A stretch of 64,000 bases of DNA, taken from NCBI GenBank assembly GCA_018266295.1, contig JAFEAQ010000019.1, positions 62,001 through 126,000 on the forward strand. Reading direction: 5' to 3'. Of this stretch, positions 30,939-33,219 are shown piece after piece. How positions within the stretch are numbered: the stretch's first letter is position 1; the number at the start of each line of letters is the position of its first letter. The stretch comes from Bdellovibrionales bacterium (GTDB lineage Bacteria > Bdellovibrionota > Bdellovibrionia > Bdellovibrionales > Bdellovibrionaceae). The notes beneath the pieces were generated by a model. It did not search any database and was not told where the DNA came from. It worked only from the letters and a program-made list of their open reading frames with translations. A program made the translations under genes and the position numbers.

Positions 30939-32501
30939 ATGAATAAGCCGAATCCGCTGATTATATTTGTCGCGGTCTTAGCCTCATTGCTGGAAATCAT
31001 CGATACCTCCATCGTGAACGTGGCACTCACGACCATGATGGGGAATCTCGGGGCGACGCTCGAGGATATCAGTATGGTGATCACCGGCTATGCGATCGCG
31101 AACGCCATCGTCTTGCCGATCTCTGGCTGGTTCAGTGAACGCATCGGTCGCCGCAAATACTTCCTCGGATGTATCACGGCATTTACTTTGACGTCCGTGG
31201 CTTGCGGTCTCGCACCGAATTTAACGACGTTAATTGTTTTCCGTATCTTACAAGGTCTCTTCGGTGGCGCTTTGTTGCCGACATCTCAAACGCTGATTTA
31301 TGAACAATTCCCGAAAGAAAAAGCAGGTATTGCAGGCGCCATCTTCGGGATGAGTGTCATGGTCGGCCCTACTTTGGGTCCGGTGATGGGTGGTTATCTG
31401 ACTGATAACTTCGGTTGGAGATCTATTTTCAATATCAATCTTCCACTCGGTATTTTGGCCTTGGTTGTTGGTATGAGTGTCATCTTTGATCGTGCTCCGC
31501 AAGCCGGTGAAGCCGCTGCTGAAAAGCCAAAACTCGATTGGACGGGATTTGCTTTGTTGGTCCTCGGTATCGGTTGTCTGCAATTCGTCCTTGAACGCGG
31601 TGAAGCCGACGACTGGTTCTCGTCAAAAGTGATCTTGCTCAATACCATCATTGCAACAGTGTGTATCCCGGCCTTTATTTGGTGGGAGCTAAAAGTTAAA
31701 AATCCTATCATCAATATGCGCATGTTCAAAAATCCCCTCGTGCAAAACGGTGTGATGTTGATGGGCTGCTTGGGATTTTTCCTATACGCCGTGGTCTTTA
31801 TCTTGCCTGTCTTTGTGGGGCGCGTTTTCCATTACGATGCCACCCAGACGGGGGCTCTGTTTATTCCGGGTTCGCTCTTAACGGCCTTAATGATGCCGTT
31901 TATCGGTCGCATGATGATGAAGGGTGTGAATCCAAAGTACCTGATTGCGATCGGCTTCCTTTCCCTGGAGGTCTGTTTGTGGATGATGTCGGGCCTGGCT
32001 CCACAATCGTCGAAGGCAGAGGTGCTGAATCTGCTTTATGTGCGCGGTTTCGGGATGGCCTTCTTGTTCGTGCCAATCAATTCATCGATCCTTAGCCAAT
32101 TTAAGGGGCCGGATCTAGGGCAGGTATCAGGCTTGCTGAATCTTTTCCGTCAAATCGGCGGCAGCATTGGTGTCGCGATGGTGGGGACCATTCTTACCAA
32201 GCACAACTATCAGAACTACGCGGATATTTCTAACAAGGTGTCATTGTTGAATCCCGCTGTGCAAGCGCAGTACTACAACACTGTCAACGGCATGAACAGC
32301 AAGATGTCCGACGGAGTCGGCTTCTATCATGGAACTGAAGCAGCGATTAAGAGCATCTGGGGACGCGTGCAAAATCAAGTCTTCATGATGAGCTTCTTAC
32401 AGCTCTGTTTTATCCTGATGTTCATCGTAGCCATTGGTTTCATCCCTCTGTGGAGAATTCGTCTGAAAGAAGGCCCTACGAAAGTGGTCGATGCTCACTA
32501 A
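30939..32501 (+). CDS. emrB: DHA2-family (EmrB/QacA) drug:H+ antiporter
   Basis: 520 aa with 14 predicted membrane segments. MFS motifs are visible: LEIIDTSIVNVALTTMMGNLGA (motif D1 of DHA2), ISGWFSERIGRRKYF (motif A), RILQGLFGGALLP (motif B) and GPTLGPVMGGYL (motif C). It exports hydrophobic toxic compounds through the EmrA-TolC-like partners encoded just upstream. A strong terminator follows. Confidence 0.94.
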   Translation: MNKPNPLIIFVAVLASLLEIIDTSIVNVALTTMMGNLGATLEDISMVITGYAIANAIVLPISGWFSERIGRRKYFLGCITAFTLTSVACGLAPNLTTLIVFRILQGLFGGALLPTSQTLIYEQFPKEKAGIAGAIFGMSVMVGPTLGPVMGGYLTDNFGWRSIFNINLPLGILALVVGMSVIFDRAPQAGEAAAEKPKLDWTGFALLVLGIGCLQFVLERGEADDWFSSKVILLNTIIATVCIPAFIWWELKVKNPIINMRMFKNPLVQNGVMLMGCLGFFLYAVVFILPVFVGRVFHYDATQTGALFIPGSLLTALMMPFIGRMMMKGVNPKYLIAIGFLSLEVCLWMMSGLAPQSSKAEVLNLLYVRGFGMAFLFVPINSSILSQFKGPDLGQVSGLLNLFRQIGGSIGVAMVGTILTKHNYQNYADISNKVSLLNPAVQAQYYNTVNGMNSKMSDGVGFYHGTEAAIKSIWGRVQNQVFMMSFLQLCFILMFIVAIGFIPLWRIRLKEGPTKVVDAH

Positions 32502-32505
32502 GAAG

Positions 32506-32533
32506 AAGCCCGGTGATGAACCGGGCTTTTTTT
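32506..32533 (+). terminator. Terminator of the efflux operon
   Basis: AAGCCCGG-TGATGAA-CCGGGCTT stem-loop with T7 tail. Confidence 0.9.
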
Positions 32534-32690
32534 ATAGCCTTGGAATCAGGAATTAATTTCAACGGGCGGGCTGAGCTCTGCCAAAGCTTCAATAGACGCT
32601 TTTATTAACTCTACATTACACCAAGATTACTTCTCGTTCAGACCCATTTTCTGGTGATGACAGTCGGCTGTAGACCATGATCTTATTCCT

Positions 32691-32763
32691 GCCAAACGTA
32701 TAAACCCCGAATTGGCGGGGTGTTTCTACCGGGCTCCGCAAAAGTCCGTCTACGGAGGATATC
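32691..32763 (+). promoter_or_regulatory. Purine riboswitch aptamer, guanine type
   Basis: P1 CGTA/TACG (32697-32700, 32751-32754), J1/2 TATAA, P2 ACCCC/GGGGT with loop ending in GG, J2/3 GTTTCTACC (32722-32730), P3 CGGGC/GTCCG with loop containing CC and CAAAA, and J3/1 TCTAC. P3 and its loop match the Bacillus subtilis xpt aptamer nearly base for base. The C before TA in J3/1 is the specificity position (C for guanine or hypoxanthine, U for adenine). P1 abuts the SD GGAGG (32754-32758), so translational control is likely. Confidence 0.85.
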
Positions 32764-33219
32764 ATGAACAAGCAGTTTCTCATTGCTATCACGATAGCTT
32801 TGATCTTTAACACTTCTTTGAGCTTCGCCCAAAGCGGCGATCATCCAGGAAAAATCTCGGACGATTCAGCTCTCGTAGCAGCCGAAGAAAGTCATCAGAA
32901 TGTGTATTATGTCGAGGCCGGGAATCTCACGGTTTCAAACATTTTGCCTGATGATACGACGGGTTTGCCACATCAGAAATGGCAAGCCAAGCTTTCGGAT
33001 GGTCAGACGATCACGGTGATTTACAATTCAGATATGGGAGCTCGTGTTCCAGTTAAGATTGGCGATAAGTTCGGCGTGGGTGGTCAGTATATTCAAACTC
33101 CCAACGGCGGCTTAATCCACTGGTTGCATGATGACCCAAAACACAATCGCCCTGACGGCTACGTGTATTTGAACGGTGTCGTTTATGGCGACACCGATCA
33201 CGAAGACAGAGGTAACTAA
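32764..33219 (+). CDS. Exported DUF3465-family protein
   Basis: 151 aa with a signal peptide (MNKQFLIAITIALIFNTSLSFA). The mature part carries the DUF3465 pattern: NILPDDTTGLPHQKWQAKLSDGQTITVIYN, then VPVKIGDKFGVGGQYIQTPNGGLIHWLHDDPKHNRPDGYVYLNGVVYG. The HWxHxD..H cluster could bind metal. Function is unknown in the family; it looks like a small OB-fold. A purine riboswitch ends at its SD, which ties its expression to guanine or hypoxanthine level, an unexpected regulation for a periplasmic protein. Confidence 0.9.
   Translation: MNKQFLIAITIALIFNTSLSFAQSGDHPGKISDDSALVAAEESHQNVYYVEAGNLTVSNILPDDTTGLPHQKWQAKLSDGQTITVIYNSDMGARVPVKIGDKFGVGGQYIQTPNGGLIHWLHDDPKHNRPDGYVYLNGVVYGDTDHEDRGN

Follow-up and report, generated by a model that had tools for sequence, protein, structure and literature searches.

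Guanine-class purine riboswitches of the Rfam family RF00167 are the closest described relatives of the leader reported here. The likeness extends to the three-way junction, the J2/3 segment GUUUCUAC, the letters U22, U51 and C74, the loop-loop letters and the covariance score. The described targets of this class are purine synthesis, salvage and transport, whereas those found here are exported nucleases and DUF3465 proteins; moreover, P1 abuts or enters the Shine-Dalgarno (SD) sequence instead of a terminator, and position 73 is often U. A second comparison is offered by the 2'-dG-II class (RF03165), whose gene associations likewise include endonuclease I and further genes for DNA handling (PMC8872408), but the aptamers considered here have neither C51 nor the J3/1 insertion of that class and give no RF03165 match above the cut-off in 60 relatives. 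Regarding the protein families involved, no assigned function of DUF3465 (PF11948) was found in the literature searched, and one member belongs to the proteins that Asaia releases (PMC12502724). Secreted nucleases of Bdellovibrio include Bd0934, Bd1244 and Bd3507, the last of which is secreted into prey (PMC7925074). No description of a guanine riboswitch regulon in Bdellovibrio was found in the literature searched, subscription papers lying largely outside that search.

The window, i.e., the whole stretch of 64,000 nucleotides analyzed here, comes from a relative of Bdellovibrio. When it was compared in full with all Rfam families (cmscan), RF00167 was matched at 32676-32772 on the + strand with 53.9 bits (E 2.2e-06; gathering cut-off 37 bits), the E-value being 8.4e-09 with the search narrowed to 32600-32850. 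This covariance check had been proposed in an earlier note, made from the letters alone, which had read a guanine-type purine riboswitch at this place; both the significant score and the presence in the window aptamer of all three pocket letters of the guanine class (U22, U51, and C74) bear that reading out.

The aptamer core, a P1-P2-P3 three-way junction on the + strand, occupies 32697..32754. As read from the sequence, P1 is short, with 4 pairs between CGTA (32697-32700) and TACG (32751-32754), and is followed by J1/2 (TAA, 32701-32703), by P2 (ACCCCG, 32704-32709, with CGGGGT, 32716-32721), which is closed by the loop L2 (AATTGG), and by P3 (CGGGCT, 32730-32735, with AGTCCG, 32743-32748), which carries L3 (CCGCAAA). 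The alignment places J2/3 GTTTCTAC at 32722..32729, with U51 at 32727. The J3/1 segment TC (32749..32750) combines a U at position 73, where the consensus has A and which is the sole departure from the consensus in the junction, with C74, the specificity cytosine of the guanine class. The core nucleotides that the earlier note had named in J2/3, in P3 and at the specificity position are all found in the sequence or the alignment. Judging from the sequence and the consensus alignment, the GG of L2 (32714..32715) can form loop-loop pairs with the CC of L3 (32736-32737). The SD GGAGGA (32754..32759) has its first G in common with P1, in agreement with the earlier statement that P1 directly abuts it, and in the fold of minimum energy P1 is extended, its lower part being formed by an SD-complementary stretch on the 5' side (TCCTGCC, 32687..32693). 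Since the folding energy of the leader is ordinary (z -0.43), the case for the aptamer is made by the covariance score and by the relatives, not by stability. The leader in the window is an ordinary member of the known riboswitch class RF00167.

A single gene lies directly downstream of the leader, namely the + strand reading frame 32764..33219, which starts with an ATG at 32764 and encodes a DUF3465 protein of 151 amino acids (PF11948, 73.1 bits, 2.6e-20, cut-off 25) with the invariants of the family and a hydrophobic N-terminal segment. The next gene is a chemoreceptor on the opposite strand. Upstream lies a gene for an MFS transporter, which ends at 32501; behind it stand a GC-rich hairpin and seven T in a row (32506..32528, + strand), so that the riboswitch probably heads a transcript of its own; a palindrome scan listed this hairpin on the minus strand and gave no excess over shuffled sequences. 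The host genome contains four RF00167 aptamers over the cut-off, of which two precede HNH-like exported proteins, one a PD-(D/E)XK-like exported protein and one the DUF3465 gene.

What sets this leader apart becomes visible at the scale of the phylum. RF00167 aptamers were detected in 36 of 60 relatives and in 77 of 291 phylum genomes, and a set of 135 aptamers with their first genes was drawn from both surveys. These first genes comprise 67 HNH, 36 Endonuclease I (EndoI), 11 PD-(D/E)XK-like, 11 EamA, five EEP, three DUF3465 and two EndoU genes, i.e., exported nucleases of five unrelated kinds stand behind 121/135 aptamers (90%). The link to nucleic-acid degradation or to the handling of prey-derived nucleobases, which had been one of several suggestions in the earlier note, is now well supported by this count. 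The unusual feature is the regulon: one guanine-class leader is common to five unrelated exported nuclease families in a phylum that includes predators, whereby an RNA metabolite sensor is linked to the digestion of nucleic acids by predatory bacteria.

The identity of these nucleases is documented to different degrees. All 24 EndoI proteins scanned match PF04231, and the two EndoU proteins match PF14436 (6.9e-16 and 9.9e-11). The EEP proteins match PF03372 or PF19580, one of the three tested remaining below its curated cut-off. HNH models were found on 32 of 34 HNH proteins, mostly as weak matches and below the curated cut-offs where these were shown, but consistently so, and in these proteins the letters DH, GG, N and NLWP do not vary. 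Predicted export is based on the hydrophobic N-terminal segment, which is present in every nuclease of the regulon and in DUF3465. As a separate observation, the PD-(D/E)XK-like proteins form a small exported family (L001:924-1505 on the - strand and ten homologues) located behind a guanine aptamer in 11 genomes. It has no Pfam match, shows the invariants E47, E80-L81-D82 (GELD), E98-V-K100 (EVK) and Q115, and the hits ranked highest for its structural model are restriction-endonuclease-like folds, their E-values being weak. Neither DUF3465 nor the HNH-like or PD-(D/E)XK-like protein has a match in NCBIfam.

Considering the position of P1, the reading towards which we lean on sequence grounds is that of a guanine-responsive, probably OFF, translational switch, through which exported nucleic-acid-processing proteins would be made when guanine is scarce. 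Guanine (or hypoxanthine) would bind the junction and stabilize P1, the 3' strand of which enters the SD, and ribosome entry would be blocked; with a fall in guanine, P1 would open and the protein would be made and exported. DUF3465 would in this way share its control with exported nucleases of the HNH, Endonuclease I, PD-(D/E)XK, EEP and EndoU kinds, which may free nucleotides from outside nucleic acids, either of prey or environmental. DUF3465 itself is predicted to have an OB fold, to be exported and to bind or process nucleic acid. A simple hypothesis would then be that nuclease production during predation is timed by purine need.

Several comparisons bear on the direction of control. The SD starts 1-7 nucleotides past U75 in 124/124 nuclease and DUF3465 leaders and in 0/11 EamA leaders. 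The two strands of P1 form more contiguous pairs with their own than with shuffled partners (4.98 vs 3.43; 0/5000), and more SD letters are included in P1 (1.56 vs 0.57; 0/5000), although this shuffle test is inflated by sequence relatedness, and the pairing excess does not extend much past the sixth pair. With the register left free, the 5' flank pairs with the SD no better than in shuffled sequences. The two divergent DUF3465 leaders allow a P1 that has a single mismatch (CGATcTA paired to TAnATCG) and whose end lies at the SD or beside it. Constrained folds give an SD accessibility of 0.27 with P1 and 0.38 without it, the corresponding values for the window leader being 0.16 and 0.23; because these differ only modestly between folds, they support the direction weakly. 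An OFF switch is favored by these data with fair confidence, its direction being deduced from the sequence.

The same guanine aptamer might instead work as an ON switch, prey-derived guanine turning the nucleases on, which we regard as unlikely yet the most serious of the alternatives. In the ligand-free state, CTCCG (32734-32738, in P3/L3) would pair with CGGAG (32753-32757) and hide the SD, and guanine would fold the aptamer and free it. The window does contain this perfect 5-bp anti-SD, and an ON mechanism is predicted for two relatives, guanine-II and xanthine-II (PMC9295807). Across the family, however, P3/L3-SD pairing does not exceed that of shuffled sequences (3.53 vs 3.51 in 96 distinct leaders), five Watson-Crick pairs being reached by only 3 of the 96, and neither P3/L3 nor P2 shows an anti-SD of general occurrence beyond the level of shuffles; in addition, the first SD letter is already used in the formation of P1.

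The behavior of Bd3507 in the B. bacteriovorus type strain HD100 also belongs to this question. HD100 has three Endonuclease I genes, and the exact Bd1244 primer of PMC3593177 lies in the middle one, so that by order the first would correspond to Bd0934 and the third to Bd3507; the published sizes of the mCherry fusions (~59 and ~55 kDa; PMC7925074) fit the lengths of the HD100 reading frames. Only the third gene stands behind an aptamer (3414605-3414702), and we infer from this order that Bd3507 carries a guanine-class leader, unlike Bd0934 and Bd1244, which have no aptamer match. The papers on these three nucleases (PMC7925074 and PMC3593177) make no mention of a riboswitch. The mRNA of Bd3507 is elevated at 1-2 h (PMC7925074), and the protein is up about 5-fold at 3-4 h, late in predation, when PurF is down (PMC12546842). 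This late rise, together with the decrease in de novo purine synthesis, favors an ON switch, and it is not the simplest expectation for an OFF switch, should purines be abundant at that time; it would fit an OFF switch if free guanine, unlike total purine, were low during replication. A second guanine aptamer of HD100 (G036:C1:2004836-2004933, - strand) is located before an HNH-like exported gene near 2.005 Mb, and no HNH enzyme appears among the HD100 nucleases listed in PMC3593177.

Regarding DUF3465 itself, the leader turns out to be the exception. The family occurs in 61 of 291 phylum genomes, mostly without a leader. Of 36 scanned loci of the family, 34 have no aptamer; among these are the paralogue from the host genome (L041) and the closest orthologue, which is 73% identical (L005). 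Only the window's own locus (L048) and one locus of genome G008 (L046) bear it, a third case (G025, of the same genus g9 as G008) having been found via the riboswitch search, which brings the members seen with a guanine leader to three. The expectation of the earlier note that the leader would be conserved before DUF3465 orthologues thus fails. The leader marks the nuclease regulon and not DUF3465, since other DUF3465 loci, even that of the 73% identical orthologue, lack it; for the same reason its absence there does not speak against the riboswitch, the conserved partners being nucleases and DUF3465 an occasional recruit. Likewise, the proposed role of DUF3465 in purine uptake found no support, the candidates for uptake or efflux in this regulon being the EamA transporters.

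EndoI leaders come closest to the window aptamer (84% and 81% identity) and make up 13 of its 20 nearest neighbors. The two DUF3465 aptamers of g9 are most similar to one another, with HNH leaders next. Within the four largest gene classes, 108 of the 125 aptamers have a nearest neighbor from their own class. Because the DUF3465 leaders resemble those of two different nucleases, EndoI-like here and HNH-like in g9, the simplest reading of these similarities is that DUF3465 was probably recruited twice into the nuclease regulon. By a rough estimate that assumes 3000 genes per genome, chance would place DUF3465 behind any aptamer ~0.013 times, and two such events would be expected at ~8e-5. In the two g9 leaders (L021/L046, G008:C48; L017, G025:C6), aptamer and DUF3465 are separated by a reading frame that begins with TTG; the frame in G008 overlaps the DUF3465 start codon (ATGA), which suggests translational coupling.

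The aptamer before DUF3465 could also be the relic of a replaced nuclease gene, in which case it would be uninformative on DUF3465. Its EndoI-like character would agree with such a history, given that the one EndoI gene found in the same genome has no aptamer match at its position, as would the closest DUF3465 orthologue without a leader. Nonetheless, the aptamer, its loop letters and the SD spacing are intact, and a divergent DUF3465 branch (g9, two genomes) has an HNH-like leader, pointing to a second recruitment, so that we consider a relic improbable.

With recruitment as the preferred reading, DUF3465 may be suspected of handling nucleic acids outside the cell, because nearly all related aptamers precede exported DNA- or RNA-cutting enzymes. 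The structural model (pLDDT 87.4) suggests an OB fold, with DNA-binding OB domains (HIN, RPA, telomere proteins and PriB) as the most similar structures at VIA Z of 8-10 (best 10.3). The Foldseek E-value is 4e-3 at best, and comparison of the DUF3465 sequence with PDB chains returned nothing convincing; the OB fold is common to many proteins and no proof of nucleic-acid binding. The phylum alignment shows D64, H70, H119, W120 and H122 as invariant. Tentatively, then, one may envisage both that DUF3465 is an unrecognized exported nucleic-acid-processing family, possibly a nuclease acting via the invariant Asp and His, and that Bdellovibrionota employ a single guanine riboswitch class to control exported nucleases of several families together, in line with purine need. 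A family without an assigned function thereby gains a testable role.

With regard to the ligand, the guanine class is the best assignment on the basis of the alignment, because none of the 135 aptamers has lost U51 or C74 and no RF03165 match exceeds the cut-off, neither in the 60 relatives nor in the host genome, where this model gave no match at all. Position 73 is A in 89 of the 135 aptamers, U in 45, the window (32749) being among them, and G in one. That another purine (2'-deoxyguanosine, guanosine or xanthine) is the ligand is very unlikely: the DNA-degrading targets of the aptamer do resemble the gene associations of 2'-dG-II (endonuclease I and ComEC, as quoted in PMC8872408) and the window has U instead of A at position 73, but U51 and C74 are retained throughout, whereas the 2'-dG classes have C51 and xanthine-II has G51 (PMC8872408; PMC9295807), and RF03165 gives no match above its cut-off. 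Individual classes can also be set aside in the window, i.e., the adenine class, which has U at position 74, by the C at 32750; 2'-dG-II, characterized by C51 and the J3/1 insertion, by U51 and the RF03165 result; and xanthine-II, characterized by G51 and insertions in J2/3 and J3/1, by U51 and the lack of insertions.

The aptamers in front of EamA genes (L055, L072, L075, L117, L131-L133, L138, L139, L148, and L078) mostly have C at position 48 (GTCTCTACC). As these leaders also have no SD nearby, a different expression platform is likely for them.
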